From a virus, in the IMG/VR virus record IMGVR_UViG_3300006929_000026, positions 1 to 48,421 of that record: a DNA stretch of 48,421 nucleotides, one strand, 5' to 3'. How positions within the stretch are numbered: position 1 is the stretch's first letter; every line of letters starts with the position of its first letter. Made by a program: the position numbers and the translations under genes. The notes beneath the pieces were generated by a model that was not told the DNA's origin, did not search any database, and worked only from the letters and a program-made list of their open reading frames with translations. Of this stretch, positions 3,117 to 39,065 are shown piece by piece.

Positions 3117-3356
3117 ATGGAAAAAGGACATTTTGGAAAGTATACTGGCAATGCAAGGCATTCACATACTCCTATAACTAAACACAACGTACATGACGCT
3201 GAGCGTGATGATGCTGCTCATATTTCTTATTTAAAAAAAGATATTGATTATGATGCAAAACATAACAAAAGTAATATTGATATGACAGCTGATGAAAAAC
3301 ACATTTCTAAGCTTGCTGGAGATATTAAATATGACTCTAAAAAATATAAGAAATAA
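3117..3356 (+). CDS. Hypothetical small His/Lys/Asp-rich protein
   Basis: This 79-aa protein is rich in His, Lys and Asp with few hydrophobic residues. It contains two loosely repeated units (DDAAHISYLKKDIDYDAKHN and DEKHISKLAGDIKYDSKKY), which suggests an internal duplication of about 30 residues with the shared core HIS-L-DI-YD-K. No membrane segment or cysteine is present. Its TAA stop shares its last base with the next ATG, so the two are probably coupled. Function is unknown; I treat it as part of the small accessory cluster. Confidence 0.6.
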   Translation: MEKGHFGKYTGNARHSHTPITKHNVHDAERDDAAHISYLKKDIDYDAKHNKSNIDMTADEKHISKLAGDIKYDSKKYKK

Positions 3357-4129
3357 TGGGATTTAAACTACCAAAAATAGGAAAAATATTTGCTAGTACT
3401 GCAGGGACTAAACCTCATGCTATGTCTATTGCAAAAGCTCAATCGCCAAAACCTGCACAAGGTAATGTATCAGGAAGTAAATCACCTTTTCATGTTACAG
3501 CTACAAAAAAAGATTATGATAGCGGTTATGCAAAAAAAGGAGAAACTTTTAGAGAATATAAAAATCGTACTATATCTGATGGTAAGTATACTAGACCTTC
3601 AAAAGAAAATAAAGAGTCAACTAAAGCAAAAGAAGGTTTGTCAAGTAGAAAAGCTGAAAAACCTGGATCATTTAAACCTTTTAGAGTAACTACACCAAAG
3701 GCTAAGAAAGATGATGATTCTAAAAAGAAAGACAATACAGTTAGAAAAAAAGTAAAAACTATTGATCAAAAAAATAAAGAGTTTGATAAAGCAAAAGCAG
3801 ATAAAAAGAAAAAAGACGGAGAAAAACTAGAAAAAGATGTAACTGCTGATATAAAATCTACTAAACAAAACCAAAAATCAAATAAGACTACTGCTAAAAC
3901 AAAAAGTAGAATAGAAAAAAGATTAGAAAAAACTAGAAAAAAAGGTGAAGCTATTGCTGATGGTGAAGGAATAAAAACCGCAGCACAACAAAGAAAAGCT
4001 AGAAGACTTAAAAAACGAGAAACTAGGCTTAAAAAAAGAGTGGCTAAATCAAAAGGACCTGCTGGTTATGTGTCAGCTGCTCAACGTAAAGCAGTACACG
4101 CATCAAAAGCTGAAAAGAAAGCGAAGTAA
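3356..4129 (+). CDS. Lysine-rich disordered protein with SPF motif
   Basis: This 257-aa protein is very rich in Lys and Arg and low in hydrophobics. The N-terminus (GFKLPKIGKIFAS) could form one short amphipathic helix. GSKSPFHVTATKKDY repeats the SPF motif, and residues from about 75 to the end are long charged helical or disordered stretches (TKSRIEKRLEKTRKKGE, RKARRLKKRETRLKKRVAK). This composition fits a DNA-condensing or packaged internal protein, which is an inference. It is the last of the tightly coupled cluster; a 47-nt A/T-rich gap follows. Confidence 0.6.
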   Translation: MGFKLPKIGKIFASTAGTKPHAMSIAKAQSPKPAQGNVSGSKSPFHVTATKKDYDSGYAKKGETFREYKNRTISDGKYTRPSKENKESTKAKEGLSSRKAEKPGSFKPFRVTTPKAKKDDDSKKKDNTVRKKVKTIDQKNKEFDKAKADKKKKDGEKLEKDVTADIKSTKQNQKSNKTTAKTKSRIEKRLEKTRKKGEAIADGEGIKTAAQQRKARRLKKRETRLKKRVAKSKGPAGYVSAAQRKAVHASKAEKKAK

Positions 4130-6909: not shown

Positions 6910-7129
6910 TGTAATAAGAAAAATTAGCATAGGAGCTGATTATAAAAATGACGCTATGCACTATGCTATAGGACAGCAAGTGTATGGCGGTCATACTATA
7001 TCTCATATATTATATAATGAAGAAGAGTTTTCTTATAATATATTTATTAAAAAAGAAGACGAGGTATTACCTTGGAAAAAATTTAATTCCAATATGGCTA
7101 TATCGGTTGAATATGATTTAGAATACTAA
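6902..7129 (+). CDS. Hypothetical small beta-rich protein, GTG start
   Basis: This 75-aa protein starts at the GTG overlapping the upstream stop by 8 nt, and its own TAA shares a base with the next ATG, so it is locked into the operon. It is mostly beta-like (YAIGQQVYGGHTISHILYNE, FSYNIFIKKEDEVLPWKKF). No membrane segment or known motif is seen. A single-domain SH3-like or barrel fold is possible from length and strand pattern, but function is unknown. Confidence 0.6.
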   Translation: MSSVIRKISIGADYKNDAMHYAIGQQVYGGHTISHILYNEEEFSYNIFIKKEDEVLPWKKFNSNMAISVEYDLEY

Positions 7130-7743
7130 TGAACAGTGTTTATGATTTTATTATAAAACCATTAGGTGAAAGATATAATAACAAAGTAAATATTGATAAT
7201 AAAGAATTAATTATTAATTCTAGTATTTCAGATCATAAATTTGTTAATAGGCTTGCCAAAGTAGTTAGTATCCCATTAGCTATAAAAACAAATATTAAAA
7301 TAAACGATATAGTTGTAGTACATCATAATTTATTTAGACGTTATTATAACATGAAAGGAAAATCAGTAAATGGTTCTAAATATTTTAAAGATGATTTATA
7401 CTTTGCCTCAGAGTCACAAATATATTTATATAATAATGGTATTTGGAATACAAATAAAGATTTTTGTTTTATAAAACCATTACAAGAAAATAATGAGTTT
7501 AGTGTTGAAAAAGTAAAAAAGAATGTTGGTATACTAAAGTATGGTAATAGTTCATTAGAAGTGCTAGGAATAACTACAGGAGATGTTGTTGGATTTAAAT
7601 CTAACAGAGAGTTTGAGTTTGTGGTTGATAAGCAGCTTTTATATTGTATGGAATCAAATGATATTTTAATTAAGTATGAACACGAAGAAAACCAAAGAGA
7701 GTATAATCCAGGCTGGGCAGAAAGCGGTAGAAGAATTAATTAA
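7129..7743 (+). CDS. Tandem GroES-like (double cpn10) protein
   Basis: This 204-aa protein appears to hold two cpn10-like barrels. The first half begins YDFIIKPLGERY and continues AKVVSIPLAIKTNIKINDIV and VVHHNLFRRYYNMKG. The second begins DFCFIKPLQE and continues VGILKYGNSSLEVLGITTGD, VVGFKSNREFEFVVD and SNDILIKYE. The order KPL / G-V-hydrophobic / GD-V / E..V / DI in each half follows the GroES scaffold. A true groES already lies at 1103-1363. It may assist terminase or capsid folding or form its own cap; the fold is inferred by pattern. The putative small terminase gene overlaps its 3' end by 68 nt. Confidence 0.6.
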   Translation: MNSVYDFIIKPLGERYNNKVNIDNKELIINSSISDHKFVNRLAKVVSIPLAIKTNIKINDIVVVHHNLFRRYYNMKGKSVNGSKYFKDDLYFASESQIYLYNNGIWNTNKDFCFIKPLQENNEFSVEKVKKNVGILKYGNSSLEVLGITTGDVVGFKSNREFEFVVDKQLLYCMESNDILIKYEHEENQREYNPGWAESGRRIN

Positions 7744-7948
7744 AGTAGCTAAAGAAGCAATAGTTGATTCTGATGATGATATTTCTGCAGACAGATTAAA
7801 AAACGCAGCTGCTACAAAAAAATTAGCTATATTTGATGCTTTTGAAATACTTAACCGTATAGAAGAAGAAGAGAATATGTTAAAAGAAACTAGTAAAAAA
7901 AATAAAGGAGCAAGCTTTAAAGGTTTTGCAGAAAATAGATCTAAATAA
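7676..7948 (+). CDS. Probable terminase small subunit
   Basis: This 90-aa helical protein lies immediately upstream of the large terminase, with a one-base overlap (taATG). It has an N-terminal basic helix (TKKTKESIIQAGQKAVEELI), an acidic turn (DSDDDISADRLKNAAATKK), then a long helix (KLAIFDAFEILNRIEEEENM). Size, helix content and position fit small terminase subunits, which bind the packaging site and stimulate the motor. No HTH is unmistakable, so the call rests mainly on synteny. It overlaps the upstream gene by 68 nt in another frame. Confidence 0.55.
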   Translation: MNTKKTKESIIQAGQKAVEELIKVAKEAIVDSDDDISADRLKNAAATKKLAIFDAFEILNRIEEEENMLKETSKKNKGASFKGFAENRSK

Positions 7949-10170
7949 TGTATAAGCAAACTCTTTATAAAATTTTACCTAATCATATAAAATCTAAAAT
8001 ACTTAAAAAAAATAACAGGTATAAAAAATGGGAAGCAGGTTATAATGAAGAACACGATGTTGTTATTATTAGTAAGAGTGGTAAGATTGGTGAAATATAT
8101 GAAATACAAGGTCTTAAAATTGCGCTTCCATTATTAGAAGATGCTTATAAAAGATCAGATAAAAAAGAAGAACAGTATTGGGAGGTAAAAGAATATCCTA
8201 AACAATTAGATAAAATTAAAACTGTATTTGATTGGAATAATTATCCTGCTCAATTTAAAGATAAATGGTATGACTATATTGATGAAGAGTTTAAAAGGCG
8301 TGAACAAGGCTTTTGGTTCTATAACAAAGGTATTCCTAGTTATATTACTGGTTCTCATTATATGTACTTGCAGTGGACCAAGATTGATGTTGGGCACCCA
8401 GAGTTCAGGGAATCTAACAGAATTTTCTTCATATTTTGGGAAGCCTGCAAACTTGATTCTCGATCCTATGGACTGTGCTATCTTAAGAATAGACGATCCG
8501 GTTTTTCTTTCATGGCATCTTCAGAGCTTGTACACCAGGCCACTATATCCTCAGATTCCAGATATGGTATACTTTCGAAAACTGGAGCTGATGCGAAGAA
8601 GATGTTTACCGATAAGGTGGTACCAATCTCCGTTAATTATCCATTCTTTTTCAAACCGATCCAGGACGGTATGGACAGGCCCAAAACGGAACTTGCCTAC
8701 AGAGTACCCGCGTCCAAACTTACCCGTCGTAAAATCGATCAGAATCAACGTCCCGAGGAACTCGTCGGGCTTGACACGACCATCGACTGGAAGAACACGG
8801 GGGACAACTCGTACGATGGGGAGAAGCTCAAACTTCTCGCCCATGACGAATCGGGCAAATGGGAGAGGCCGGACAACATCCTCAATAACTGGAGGGTTAC
8901 AAAAACAACATTAAGATTAGGTAGTAGAATAATAGGGAGATGTATGATGGGATCAACATCTAACTCATTAGATAAAGGAGGTGCTAATTTTAAAAAACTA
9001 TATGATGCGTCAGACGTTACAAAAAGAAACAGAAATGGACAGACTAATTCAGGACTATATAGTTTGTTCATACCTATGGAATGGAATTACGAAGGATACA
9101 TCGATACTCATGGATTTCCTGTATTCGAAACTCCGAAAAAAGCGGTTAGAAGTATCGATGGCGGAGAAATTAAAATCGGTGTCATCTCACATTGGGAAAA
9201 CGAAGTAGAAGGTTTAAAAAATGACCAAGACGGTTTAAATGAATTTTATCGTCAGTTTCCAAGAACTGAAAAACATGCTTTTAGAGATGAAGCAAAACAA
9301 TCTTTATTTAATCTAACTAAGATTTATGAACAAATAGATTATAACGAAGATTTAAAAAACACAAATATCCTTACAAAAGGAAGTTTTCAATGGGAAAATG
9401 GTGTAAAAGATACAAGAGTGATATTTGTTCCAAACAATAATGGCAGGTTTTTAGTATCTTGGATACCACCAGTTAATTTACAAAATAAATATATAATTAA
9501 AAATGGTATTAGGTATCCTGGAAATGATCATACTGGTGCTTTTGGCTGTGATAGTTATGATATCTCTGGTACAGTAGATGGTAGAGGTTCTAAAGGAGCC
9601 TTACATGGTTTAACTAAATTTTCTATGGAGGATGTTCCTCCAAATAGTTTTTTCTTAGAATATATAGCTAGACCACAAACAGCTGAAATATTTTTTGAAG
9701 ATGTTTTAATGGCTATAGCTTTTTACGGTATGCCATTACTTGCAGAAAATAACAAACCAAGATTATTATATTATTTAAAAAGAAGAGGTTACAGAGGTTA
9801 TTCTATGAATAGACCAGATAAAGTTTATAATAAATTATCTGTTACAGAAAGAGAAATAGGTGGAATACCTAATACAAGTGAAGATATTAAACAAGCACAT
9901 GCTGCTGCTATTGAAGATTATATTGAAAACTTTGTTGGTTTAATTACTACAGGTTATGGAGATATGTATTTTCAAAACACATTAGACGACTGGGCAAAGT
10001 TTAATATAAACAATAGAACTAAGCATGACGCTTCAATAAGCTCTGGTTTAGCTATAATGGCTTGTAATAAAAACAGGTATACACCTCACGCTAAAAGAAA
10101 TATATCATCCGTTCCTTTAAAGTTTAAGTCATATGATAATAAAGGATATAATTCAAAAATAATCACATAA
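7948..10170 (+). CDS. terL: Terminase large subunit (packaging ATPase-nuclease)
   Basis: This 740-aa protein is the DNA-packaging motor. The ATPase half has a deviant Walker A at about 180-188 (KNRRSGFS), a Walker B at 294-301 (LKLLAHDE) and a coupling-type GRCMMGSTSN at about 330. The nuclease half has an RNase-H-like acidic site starting GAFGCDSYDISG (Asp535), with later acidic positions such as FFEDVLMAI and KHDASISSGLA. It is longer than most terminases. It directly precedes the portal gene. Residues about 141-317 are encoded by a strikingly GC-rich block (about 55% in the counted part, against about 30% nearby) with different codon choice; the reading frame continues without a break. Confidence 0.92.
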   Translation: MYKQTLYKILPNHIKSKILKKNNRYKKWEAGYNEEHDVVIISKSGKIGEIYEIQGLKIALPLLEDAYKRSDKKEEQYWEVKEYPKQLDKIKTVFDWNNYPAQFKDKWYDYIDEEFKRREQGFWFYNKGIPSYITGSHYMYLQWTKIDVGHPEFRESNRIFFIFWEACKLDSRSYGLCYLKNRRSGFSFMASSELVHQATISSDSRYGILSKTGADAKKMFTDKVVPISVNYPFFFKPIQDGMDRPKTELAYRVPASKLTRRKIDQNQRPEELVGLDTTIDWKNTGDNSYDGEKLKLLAHDESGKWERPDNILNNWRVTKTTLRLGSRIIGRCMMGSTSNSLDKGGANFKKLYDASDVTKRNRNGQTNSGLYSLFIPMEWNYEGYIDTHGFPVFETPKKAVRSIDGGEIKIGVISHWENEVEGLKNDQDGLNEFYRQFPRTEKHAFRDEAKQSLFNLTKIYEQIDYNEDLKNTNILTKGSFQWENGVKDTRVIFVPNNNGRFLVSWIPPVNLQNKYIIKNGIRYPGNDHTGAFGCDSYDISGTVDGRGSKGALHGLTKFSMEDVPPNSFFLEYIARPQTAEIFFEDVLMAIAFYGMPLLAENNKPRLLYYLKRRGYRGYSMNRPDKVYNKLSVTEREIGGIPNTSEDIKQAHAAAIEDYIENFVGLITTGYGDMYFQNTLDDWAKFNINNRTKHDASISSGLAIMACNKNRYTPHAKRNISSVPLKFKSYDNKGYNSKIIT

Positions 10171-34461: not shown

Positions 34462-34815
34462 ATGAATAACGAAAAAAAAGAAGTACGTCATTACATCGGT
34501 GCAGCCGGCATATTTACTTTAATCATATTATTACTAATATTTCTAAGTTATGTAGAAATACCACCAGTAAATAAAGACTTATTCGTGGCCATCGTAGGAA
34601 CACTAGTTTCTAGTTTGGGAATTGTTGTGTATGTTATAATAGGGCAACAACCGGATGAGGTTAATAAATTACAAAAGAAAAATGAATCATTAGAATCAAT
34701 GACTCATCAAATGGAAAAACGTAATGATCAATTAGAAGAAATGATAATTGACATGCAAAAAGAAATGATAGAAAAATTTACTTCAAAAAGTTGTAACTGT
34801 AAAGATAAAGAATAA
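34462..34815 (+). CDS. Membrane/coiled-coil protein, possible holin or spanin-type
   Basis: This 117-aa protein has two hydrophobic segments (IFTLIILLLIFLSYVEI; LFVAIVGTLVSSLGIVVYVI), then a coiled coil (NKLQKKNESLESMTHQMEKR) and a C-terminus with CNCKDKE. N-terminal TM hairpin plus cytoplasmic coiled coil suits a holin, anti-holin or lysis regulator. It is three genes before the endolysin, so a lysis function is likely. The start overlaps nothing; the next gene begins with the ATG that shares its stop base. Confidence 0.6.
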   Translation: MNNEKKEVRHYIGAAGIFTLIILLLIFLSYVEIPPVNKDLFVAIVGTLVSSLGIVVYVIIGQQPDEVNKLQKKNESLESMTHQMEKRNDQLEEMIIDMQKEMIEKFTSKSCNCKDKE

Positions 34816-34946
34816 TGAAAAAAAGCCCATTAATGATCAAGATAAGTGCTAGTTGTAAAGCAGCAGCTAAGAAAAAATTTAAAGTATATCCAAGTGCATA
34901 TGCAAACATATGGGCTTCAAAAACACAGAAAAAAGGTAAGTGCTAA
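34815..34946 (+). CDS. 43-aa basic two-Cys protein with MKKSPL start
   Basis: This is a short frame (43 aa, 44 codons), fixed at both ends by overlaps of one base with its neighbours (taATG at each junction). It reads MKKSPLMIKISASCKAAA, then KKFKVYPSAYANIWASKTQ and a C-terminal KKGKC. Two cysteines and the VYPSAYAN element recall small phage proteins of unknown function. The MKKSPL start is nearly the same as MKKSPF of the protein at 2092-2289. It is too short for many gene callers but is clearly operonic. Confidence 0.6.
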   Translation: MKKSPLMIKISASCKAAAKKKFKVYPSAYANIWASKTQKKGKC

Positions 34947-35314
34947 TGGGCTTTAATATACATAACAGACACTCTAATAGCCCTTTAGCTTGTTGGAAAG
35001 GATACGAAAGAGTTCCTGGTACAGCAAAAGGAGCCAAAGGAAGTTGTAGAAAATCATCTGGTCCTGCTCAAAAAGGATCTGTAAAAGGTGGAGGTACTAA
35101 AAAAGTATGTTTACCTAAAGCAAAGATTGCTAGCATGAGCCAACAAGAAAGACAAAAAGTTATAAGTGCAAAACAAAAAGCTGGTAGAGCTGGTAAGTAT
35201 AAAAGATCTAGTAGTAGCAATGTTACTGGTACTGCTAGTAAAAATTTAAAAGACTGGATTAAACAAGACTGGAGACAGGTTGGTGATCCTAGTAAAAAAT
35301 GTGGAGAAAAATAA
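34946..35314 (+). CDS. Small basic Cys protein with NSPLACWKGY
   Basis: This 122-aa basic protein starts at the ATG overlapping the previous stop by one base; the GTG at 34940 is a less likely start. NSPLACWKGYERVPGTAKGA is followed by SCRKSSGPAQ, then KVCLPKAKIASMSQQERQK and a Lys/Ser/Arg stretch (GRAGKYKRSSSSNVTG), ending WRQVGDPSKKCGEK. Several cysteines spaced in basic sequence suggest a small zinc- or nucleic-acid-binding protein. It seems to be one of a group of SPF/SPL-motif proteins shared with the 1.8-4.1 kb cluster. Function is unknown. Confidence 0.65.
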   Translation: MGFNIHNRHSNSPLACWKGYERVPGTAKGAKGSCRKSSGPAQKGSVKGGGTKKVCLPKAKIASMSQQERQKVISAKQKAGRAGKYKRSSSSNVTGTASKNLKDWIKQDWRQVGDPSKKCGEK

Positions 35315-35315
35315 T

Positions 35316-35669
35316 ATGCAATACTTTAATATTACAGAATTTGACAGTCCCGACCAAATTGGTAGTGGTCGAGTAATGAAAGAAAATATATTAGAAATGT
35401 TGGATATGGCAAGAGGTAAGTTTGATAAAGCCATACACATAAACAGCGGTTATAGAACTAAAGAACATAATAAAAAAATAGGTGGAAAAAAAGATTCTGC
35501 TCATTTAAAAGGATATGCTGTAGATATACATTGTAATAATTCAAGAGATAGGTATCATCTTGTTAATTGTTTATTAGATGTAGGATTTAATCGTATAGGT
35601 ATAGCTAATACATTTATACATGTAGATGCTGATCCAGATAAAGATCCAGATGTAATTTGGATATATTAA
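35316..35669 (+). CDS. Endolysin, M15-type peptidase
   Basis: This 117-aa protein is a Peptidase M15-type (VanY/L-Ala-D-Glu or D,D-peptidase) enzyme cutting peptidoglycan cross-links or stem peptides. I took the ATG at 35316, one base after the preceding stop. The zinc site is complete: Ser-x-His with SAHLKGYAVDIH (His63, Asp70) and FIHVD (His102). The start INSGYRTKEHNKKIGG is the family's substrate-side motif. No signal peptide is present, so it needs a holin (5488 or 34462). It closes the + arm and is followed by hairpins. Confidence 0.88.
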   Translation: MQYFNITEFDSPDQIGSGRVMKENILEMLDMARGKFDKAIHINSGYRTKEHNKKIGGKKDSAHLKGYAVDIHCNNSRDRYHLVNCLLDVGFNRIGIANTFIHVDADPDKDPDVIWIY

Positions 35670-35751: not shown

Positions 35752-37470
35752 CTAGCCGTCACAAGACAAACACTCTTCATCCATAGCTGCAGCTGCTATG
35801 TCGCCTCTAAGAACAGATTCTGTTCTCATATAGTATAAGGTCTTAATACCTTTTTTCCATGCATCTAAGTGAACTTTATTAATCCATTTAGGTGTTGCTT
35901 CAGAAGGAAATGCTAGGTTTAAACTAACTCCTTGATCTATATATTGCTGTCTTATACCTGCTTGATTAACTAATTCTAGTTGATTTATTTCTTTAAATGT
36001 TTTAAATACATCCTTAGCTGGTATATCATTATTAAACATTAAACCATCTAGTTCTTTTACATCTTGAACTGAGCCGCCATCTCTTAATATTTTATCCCAT
36101 ATCTTTTCAGTATTAAGTTTATTTCTACGTAAAAACTTAACTAGTGTAGGGTTTTTTCTAATAAATGTACCTTTAGCTGATTGTTCTGTAAATACATTTG
36201 CAGCCCATGGCTCAATACCAGGTGATATATTACCTGATAGTTTACTATTACTAACAGTTGGTGCTATAGCTCTAAGATGAGTATTACGCATACCAGTTCC
36301 TACGCACCATAATGGTTCGCCGTATGTTTCAGCTAGGTTTCTACTGGCTCTATCAGATTCTATTTTAATCTGACTAAATATTCTACGTGTTTCATATTGT
36401 GACAATAGCCCTTCAAATGGTATACCTTTTTCTTGTAAATAAGTATGCCAACCAAGTACTCCTAGGCCTAATGCTCTACCTTTACTAGCTGATCTTACAG
36501 AGTTTTCAAAACCTCTTAATCCTTTAGCTCTATGTATAAACTCTTCCATAACACCATCTAAAAACCATATACTATCATATATAAGATTAGTATTTTTCCA
36601 CTCATCATACTTAGCTAAATTTAAACTAGATAAACAGCATACAAAACTATGGTTTTCATCTGTATGTAAAGTAATTTCACTACAGATATTAGTCATATGA
36701 ACTTTTAAGCTGTTCGACTTGTAAGCATCTGGATTAGCCTTGTTTGTATTTCCTTTAAAGAGGACATATGGCTCGCCTGTAGCTTTTCGTTTTTGAAGTA
36801 ACTTGGACCACTTATTCCGTGCATTTGTATCTCCACTTTCGAGTCTTCGCATAAACTTATCGCCAACGACAGCACACTGATGTAAGTTAAGAGATTGACG
36901 ATTGACGTCCCCTTTAGGTTCTCTGATTTCCAACCATTCATCGAAATCAGCGTGTTCAATATTGATATTAACGGATGCAGCCCCTCTACGTACTGATCCT
37001 TGGTTGGTTGCGAGTATAGTTGAGTCATAGATCTTGCAAAAAGGGACAACTCCATCTGATGTTCCATTACCTGTAATTTTAGATCCGGCGGGTCTTATCA
37101 TATTTATACCGACGCCTACGCCACCACCGTGTTTAGCGAGCAGCATCATTTCTAGATTTTTTTGCCCTATATCACTTATACTATCAGCGACATCAATACC
37201 AAAACAAGATATAGGTAAGCCTCTATCAGTTCCAGTGTTAGAAAGAACAGGTGAAGCTAAACATAGCCAACCATTCCATATGTATTCAAAAAACGTAGGT
37301 GCTAATTCAGGTTTATATAAACGTCGTGCCACAGTTTTCGATACTCGCATATAGGCTTCTCTGGGTGTTTCACCTTGAAGTAAGTATCCTCCACTAATAG
37401 TTTTTTTATAGACATCAGTATTTCCCCAATTAGGGTAATCTTCTCCTTTAATCCAATCATTATTCCACAT
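35752..37470 (-). CDS. nrdA: Ribonucleotide reductase class I, alpha subunit
   Basis: This 572-aa protein reduces ribonucleotides to deoxyribonucleotides with NrdB. Active-site parts are present: ISCF (Cys89, redox), NICSEI (Asn261, Cys263 thiyl, Glu265), VCCLSS (Cys279 partner), the radical-transfer tyrosines in TLYYMRTES, and a C-terminal CLSC (567-570) for reduction by thioredoxin. There is no N-terminal ATP-cone, so it is much shorter than cellular NrdA and should lack the dATP overall-activity switch. Residues about 113-257 lie in a GC-richer block (about 40-45%) than the rest. It is the last gene of the - arm, stopping 7 bp from the hairpin. No glutaredoxin or NrdH gene is in view. Confidence 0.93.
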   Translation of the reverse strand: MWNNDWIKGEDYPNWGNTDVYKKTISGGYLLQGETPREAYMRVSKTVARRLYKPELAPTFFEYIWNGWLCLASPVLSNTGTDRGLPISCFGIDVADSISDIGQKNLEMMLLAKHGGGVGVGINMIRPAGSKITGNGTSDGVVPFCKIYDSTILATNQGSVRRGAASVNINIEHADFDEWLEIREPKGDVNRQSLNLHQCAVVGDKFMRRLESGDTNARNKWSKLLQKRKATGEPYVLFKGNTNKANPDAYKSNSLKVHMTNICSEITLHTDENHSFVCCLSSLNLAKYDEWKNTNLIYDSIWFLDGVMEEFIHRAKGLRGFENSVRSASKGRALGLGVLGWHTYLQEKGIPFEGLLSQYETRRIFSQIKIESDRASRNLAETYGEPLWCVGTGMRNTHLRAIAPTVSNSKLSGNISPGIEPWAANVFTEQSAKGTFIRKNPTLVKFLRRNKLNTEKIWDKILRDGGSVQDVKELDGLMFNNDIPAKDVFKTFKEINQLELVNQAGIRQQYIDQGVSLNLAFPSEATPKWINKVHLDAWKKGIKTLYYMRTESVLRGDIAAAAMDEECLSCDG

Positions 37471-38096: not shown

Positions 38097-39065
38097 TTAC
38101 CAAATATCTTCAAAATCTTCTCCTTCGTTAGCCTTTGCGTAATCAGTAGGCCTAACACTAAAAAAGTCAGTATGAGTATGCCCCCCGGTAAGATGGTAGA
38201 ACCAATCAAGAGCTTTTGCTCCGTCTTTGTCAAACTGAAAGTACTCCCCGTGGTGCTCGTAGCCGAGTTCTGTAATTTTTTCATTGAGTCTTTTTCTAAT
38301 GAATTGTTTAAGGTCGTAAGCTTTAAGATTTTCAATGTCTCCAAGTTCGAACATTTTGTCAATATAGTTTTCTTCTGCTTCGAGCATTGCTGTTGCAGCA
38401 TCCAATATGTCTTGTTCACAGTCTTTTAATAATTTATTATTTTCTTTACACATATGACGAAAAAGTGTACAACCCATCTTACTATGCAACGACTCATCGC
38501 GCACACTCCATTTCATCTGTTGTCCTACTCCTTTCAGTAAATTTCTTAACTGAAAACTATATAGAACAGCGAAGGCAGAGTACAAGCTAACACCTTCAGC
38601 AAAGGCGCTAAAGACTGCAAGGCTTCGTGCAATTCCAGTATGTTCACTTCCATCATAACTAACTAAATTATCAAAGCGTTCCATTGTTGCTTCGTCTTGT
38701 AAGAACGCTTCAAAATTTTCAAGACCAAGAGTTTCATTTAAATAACTATATGCAACAGCATGTATTGTTTCTTGCGAACCAAACATCATTGCCATTTGTT
38801 GAATTTCATGCTTCGGAAACCATGATACAACTTTCTGTGTCCAATAGTCTGACACAGCACATTCTGTTTGAGCAAAGCCCAACAGTATATTGCCTACTAA
38901 ATTTTTTTCTTCTGGTGTAAGCTTTTCGTTCCAATCTTTAATATCGCTTGACATTGATATTTCAGTATGAAGCCAGAATGCTTGAGCCTGTTTAAGCCAC
39001 CCTTCAGTATAGTATTCAGGGTACTCAAAAGGCTTGTAAGGTACTCTTACGTCAAATAATCCCAT
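38097..39065 (-). CDS. nrdB: Ribonucleotide reductase class I, beta subunit
   Basis: This 322-aa protein supplies the di-metal/tyrosyl radical to NrdA. Ligands visible are Glu99 and His102 (ETIH), Glu157 (AFAEGVS), Glu191 and His194 (RDESLH). Tyr106 (ETIHAVAY) is in the radical position, so it is a tyrosyl rather than Phe/Mn-type enzyme. The first ligand lies in FAQTECAV, most simply Glu68 in place of the usual Asp, which is an alignment inference. The C-terminus (ANEGEDFEDIW) is the acidic aromatic tail that binds the alpha subunit. Part of its 3' half is GC-richer than the neighbours. Confidence 0.92.
   Translation of the reverse strand: MGLFDVRVPYKPFEYPEYYTEGWLKQAQAFWLHTEISMSSDIKDWNEKLTPEEKNLVGNILLGFAQTECAVSDYWTQKVVSWFPKHEIQQMAMMFGSQETIHAVAYSYLNETLGLENFEAFLQDEATMERFDNLVSYDGSEHTGIARSLAVFSAFAEGVSLYSAFAVLYSFQLRNLLKGVGQQMKWSVRDESLHSKMGCTLFRHMCKENNKLLKDCEQDILDAATAMLEAEENYIDKMFELGDIENLKAYDLKQFIRKRLNEKITELGYEHHGEYFQFDKDGAKALDWFYHLTGGHTHTDFFSVRPTDYAKANEGEDFEDIW

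Follow-up and report, generated by a model that had tools for sequence, protein, structure and literature searches.

The window, a stretch of 48,421 nucleotides of viral DNA (IMG/VR record IMGVR_UViG_3300006929_000026), contains on its plus strand a gene for a terminase large subunit of 740 amino acids (positions 7948–10170), which matches PHROG 6681 with an E value of 4.8e-168 and lies directly downstream of a phage-encoded gene for a GroES-like co-chaperonin (positions 7129–7743, plus strand; PHROG 13932). Inside the terminase gene, the +1 frame of the same strand is free of stop codons for 234 codons (positions 8210–8914, including the TAA at 8912–8914). A predicted overlapping protein of 214 amino acids is encoded from ATG 8270 to position 8911, with TTG 8279 and ATG 8282 as alternative starts, and its translation opens with MTILMKSLKGVNKAFGSITKVFLVILLVLIICTCSGPRLMLG. 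This protein would consist of an N-terminal hydrophobic segment, VFLVILLVLIICTCSG (positions 8330–8377), which is a candidate signal peptide or membrane anchor, and a basic tail rich in Ser, Thr, Pro, and Arg (positions 8378–8911), which coincides with an island of high G+C content. The phage is marine, and its host is probably a member of the Bacteroidota, as judged from its cultured relatives (Flavobacterium and Cellulophaga).

The initial annotation had pointed to this island, and its count of 99 G/C per 180 nucleotides at positions 8701–8880 was reproduced exactly; at 55.0%, it is the maximum of all 180-nucleotide windows taken in 30-nucleotide steps over the 48,421 bases. The G+C content was 47.5% at positions 8370–8895 compared with 31.9% for the whole window and 21.7% at positions 9281–9340. 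Along the terminase, third-position G+C (GC3) was 48, 28, 60, 62, and 68% at residues 141–180, 180–215, 215–250, 250–285, and 285–320, respectively, against approximately 15% in the flanks, and it returned to the low level at residue 320. The right edge of the island is sharp (about 8895–8911), and the left edge is gradual, climbing at about 8330–8370. As had also been claimed, the terminase frame is unbroken across the island.

We compared the window codon by codon with 80 viral contigs picked on terminase similarity alone (75–91% identity), so that the sampling of the 81 sequences was blind to the +1 frame. The +1 frame was open in 64 of the 81 terminases (63 of the 80 relatives; hereafter ORF+) and closed in 17 (ORF−). 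Most of the relatives carry the island at the same position, whereas the 17 terminases without the ORF likewise lack the island. An assembly chimera of two phages, with which the sharp right edge would agree, is practically inconceivable because dozens of contigs from independent metagenomes, as well as contigs from genome collections, share the island at the same place with the frame intact.

Stop avoidance and the edge of the island

The open frames of the 64 ORF+ sequences are 145–266 codons long, and the hidden stop falls at terminase residues 256–323. In the window, the +1 frame contains no stop codon, where 3.9 are expected when its own synonymous codons are shuffled (p ≤ 0.0005). The same shuffle, performed within the stretch of each sequence with the protein, codon counts, and GC3 all held fixed, gave an average of 4.1 expected stops per ORF+ sequence against 0 observed, and a model based on the codon usage of the flanks gave 10.0. 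The other sense frame contains 11–28 stops. A long frame in a second phase is therefore kept open beyond chance in these terminases, and the same was found in a second lineage described below.

The edge of the island follows the hidden stop. GC3 fell from 0.56 in the 30 codons upstream of the hidden stop to 0.24 in the 30 codons downstream (p = 1e-11), and in each of three length classes (stops at residues 256–274, 289–294, and 306–323) this step was displaced along with the stop. Over residues 130–257, the lowest GC3 among ORF+ sequences (0.31) exceeded the highest among ORF− sequences (0.29), a complete separation.

These results bear on the proposal that the segment was recently imported from a high-GC relative, whose composition would incidentally leave the +1 frame open. 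Trees of the island and the flanks do disagree, and plateaus of identity across the island point to exchange (see below), so the recombination part of the proposal stood. The high-GC donor, however, is unsupported because the GC3 step tracks the +1 stop in each length class and the flanks of all ORF+ relatives are AT-rich. Conversely, two terminases with GC3-rich flanks, L082 and L183, have neither the ORF nor the island. At fixed GC3 and codon counts, stops are still expected in the +1 frame but absent, and the third frame does contain them. Recent import as the origin of the island is thus very unlikely.

The initial annotation had further regarded long shadow ORFs on both strands as by-products of the island. 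Such ORFs are present, but only the same-strand +1 ORF is kept in the relatives, and for this ORF the causality appears to be reversed, with the ORF giving rise to the island. The antisense ORFs at positions 8551–8844 and 8745–9071 were rejected as genes, their positions varying among the relatives.

Properties of the predicted protein

A start codon was found within terminase columns 107–114 in 53 of 53 nonredundant ORF+ relatives (66% expected), and an ATG in 49 of 53 (52% expected); no single start codon was fully conserved among the ORF+ relatives. A +1 ribosomal frameshift from the terminase may operate in place of internal initiation.

The hydrophobic segment, with the pattern LLxLLVLxTCTCSG in the window, imposes a distinct codon choice on the terminase. 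The codon for Thr133 was ACT in 64 of 64 ORF+ but in 6 of 17 ORF− terminases, that for Gln141 was CAG in 50 of 64 versus 2 of 17, and that for Ile132 was ATA in none of 57 ORF+ versus 12 of 14 ORF− sequences. Synonymous conservation at the segment (observed/expected, O/E) was 1.50 and 1.24 in ORF+ compared with 1.06 and 0.95 in ORF− sequences, and the hydropathy of the segment was 2.77 compared with 1.20 (p = 4e-7). The hidden amino acid sequence is under selection at this segment, the sole part of the island in which synonymous conservation was raised. Column-wise conservation of hidden residues was not counted as evidence for coding because it is found outside the +1 frame as well: 37% of columns were conserved, against 33% in a control frame and 30% in a downstream region, which are nearly as high.

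The tail has a mean net charge of +14 (64 members) and evolves fast. Across most of the island, third bases were as variable as expected (O/E of about 1.0, below the flanks), which argues against selection on the DNA or mRNA as such, another explanation offered initially. Terminase genes can carry packaging sites, and a peak of synonymous conservation lies just downstream, at positions 9028–9126; a packaging site or an mRNA structure could in principle raise the G+C content. The island, however, showed no unusual RNA folding (z = −0.40), no Rfam match, and no conserved site or structure across the relatives, and the position of its right edge, like its length, changes with the hidden stop, which makes such an element extremely unlikely as its cause.

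An AlphaFold model based on 63 aligned proteins had a pLDDT of 42 and contained a single helix (residues 2–34), the only confident one; the rest was modeled as disorder with a pLDDT below 50 in the tail, which is probably disordered. Comparison with PHROGs, Pfam, NCBIfam, PADLOC, and PDB sequences gave no credible match to the hidden protein. With the protein itself as the query, at least 589 confirmed stretches in marine phage contigs were retrieved; counting the relatives matched by their terminase, the total exceeds 600 stretches. None of the records in the phage collection that was searched contains the ORF. No standalone homologue was found: every match checked was the +1 frame inside a terminase.

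Distribution and evolution of the hidden frame

The ORF also occurs in a second group of terminases, related to L169, whose terminase is 68% identical to that of the window. Nearly all of the 45 sequences with at least 73% identity to L169 have the ORF; 26 nonredundant members showed 0 stops with 4.4 expected, and GC3 dropped from 0.53 to 0.25 at the hidden stop. The hidden protein of this lineage has another N-terminus, e.g. SLIFVLMVTGSCATV. In L169 and L185–L226, the N-terminus reads SLIVVMMVxGSCAT and is set in another register relative to the terminase. Contigs L153, L159, L160, L167, and L169 occur in archaea-labeled metagenome-assembled genomes (MAGs), most likely by misbinning; the MAG labels of matches are an unreliable host indicator for phage contigs. 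The terminase is conserved in outgroups without the island, and the outgroup terminases of MW202828 and Elemovirus contain many stops in the +1 frame, so the ORF is derived. One origin or two may underlie the ORF in the two lineages, both being compatible with the data.

Presence and absence of the ORF are scattered over the terminase tree. The flank protein tree required nine changes between ORF+ and ORF−, eight of them forced by well-supported branches, whereas the nucleotide tree of the island required a single change (100% of bootstraps). Composition accounts for part of the signal in the nucleotide tree, so the four changes obtained with codon positions 1+2 of the island are the fairer figure; a control stretch of comparable length required nine. 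Pairs such as L030/L070 and L049/L031 were mostly 86–98% identical over the island but mostly 60–85% identical outside it. These plateaus, at residues of about 125–320, mark exchange, although the constraint of the overlap may contribute. The scattered distribution and the conflict between island and flank trees indicate that the segment has been exchanged by homologous recombination, as a second layer and not as the cause of the island.

Two ORF− terminases, L043 and L071, retain a relic hydrophobic segment of the hidden protein and resemble recent losses. In the tree of positions 1+2, too, L043 lies close to L074, its sister in the flank tree, which, together with the relic, looks like loss. 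A history of a single gain followed only by losses was rejected since the island and flank trees indicate exchange in addition to loss; both processes occur, as judged from these trees.

Discussion

The island is very probably the footprint of a +1 protein gene overprinted on that of the terminase large subunit. The +1 frame would have been born within the older (ancestral) terminase frame, and its translation, most likely initiated internally at 8270–8282, would give a product of about 145–220 amino acids across the relatives. Because the third base of a terminase codon is the second base of the hidden codon, both stop avoidance and the coding of Ser, Thr, Pro, Arg, and Gly favor G/C there; from the genetic code, we infer that hidden coding pushes terminase third positions toward G/C. 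The stop-free frame and the hydrophilic tail would in this way create the island, which would end where the hidden gene ends, and the N-terminal segment would lead to insertion of the protein into, or its export across, the host membrane.

Genes nested in the +1 frame have precedents. The protein family encoded here appears to be without known relatives. Overprinting has been described for viruses in general (reviewed in PMC8227390), and the hidden gene shares with overprinted +1 genes a same-strand internal overlap, a restricted phylogenetic distribution, unusual codon use, and a basic, disordered accessory product (disorder being predicted here). The best-studied cases, however, are from small ssDNA or RNA viruses (PMC8227390), whereas the present overlap belongs to a tailed dsDNA phage, is long (about 145–220 codons), lies within the gene of the packaging ATPase, and resides on a segment exchanged by recombination. 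Leviviral single-gene lysis proteins nested in rep (PMC7693330) and phiX174 gene E in D are likewise +1 genes nested in a large gene; they encode a membrane segment and have been gained and lost, leaving relics. In leviviruses, the nested genes mostly occupy less conserved regions (PMC7693330), whereas the hidden overlap covers a conserved part of the terminase; moreover, the phage in the window has a predicted M15 endolysin, and lysis activity of the hidden gene is only a candidate. We found no report of a nested gene in a terminase in the open-licence literature, and annotated relatives list none. Genes 19.2 and 19.3 of phage T7 are annotated within gene 19; our literature search gave no confirmation.

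The o-spanin Rz1 of phage lambda, nested in Rz (PMC6139136), raises the possibility that the hidden protein is an outer-membrane lipoprotein that disrupts the outer membrane at lysis. As is typical of o-spanins, often unannotated (PMC6139136), it is encoded in tailed phages by an embedded +1 gene with an export-like N-terminus, and the hydrophobic segment ends in Cys in both lineages (LITC/LTTC; often GSC in the L169 lineage). However, the canonical lipobox [LVI][ASTVI][GAS]C occurs in none of the 64 sequences, and the Thr/Ile preceding the first Cys is dictated by Tyr137 of the terminase. The host gene is a terminase and not an i-spanin, and it lies 26 kb from the predicted lysis region (positions 34462–35669, plus strand), which encodes a 117-residue membrane and coiled-coil protein, predicted from its sequence to be holin or i-spanin like, and the predicted 129-residue M15 peptidase endolysin. 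Typical o-spanins are also about 40–100 residues shorter than the hidden protein. Without the lipobox and outside the lysis cassette, the protein does not qualify as an Rz1-type spanin, and an o-spanin role appears unlikely.

The membrane-directed N-terminus, the basic tail, and the location in a packaging gene suggest a late role at the envelope, with lysis and superinfection exclusion as the leading candidate functions. As no homologue of known function was found, the role is read from the N-terminal segment only, and we tentatively propose that this accessory protein acts late and at the host envelope, in one of these two processes. A more speculative and rather doubtful idea is that this widespread envelope protein, polymorphic for presence and carried by recombination within an essential gene, mediates phage competition, for example by superinfection exclusion; if so, it would be an accessory gene traveling inside a core gene of marine Bacteroidota phages.

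Hundreds of marine phage contigs apparently encode the family, which escaped notice because nested genes are discarded by gene callers. Because the overlap covers a long, conserved terminase stretch, both proteins would evolve under strong mutual constraint. Natural ORF− alleles serve as controls, and the birth of a gene by overprinting, its stepwise extension at the C-terminus, and its loss are directly testable here. A local island of GC or of unusual codons within a phage gene can be a cheap signal of a hidden gene.

Other regions of the window

The synonymous-conservation peak at positions 9028–9126 (terminase residues of about 360–392) occurs in ORF+ and ORF− sequences alike, with O/E of 1.46–1.66 and 1.37–1.43, respectively; for example, Tyr370 is TAT and Pro375 is CCT in 79 of 81 terminases each. 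No open extra frame was found there, and the peak is possibly a DNA or RNA site. Elsewhere in this AT-rich genome, stop-free +1 runs of 129, 109, and 102 codons were observed at positions 35752–37470 (minus strand), 38097–39065 (minus strand), and 3356–4129 (plus strand), respectively, the first two being ribonucleotide reductase genes.
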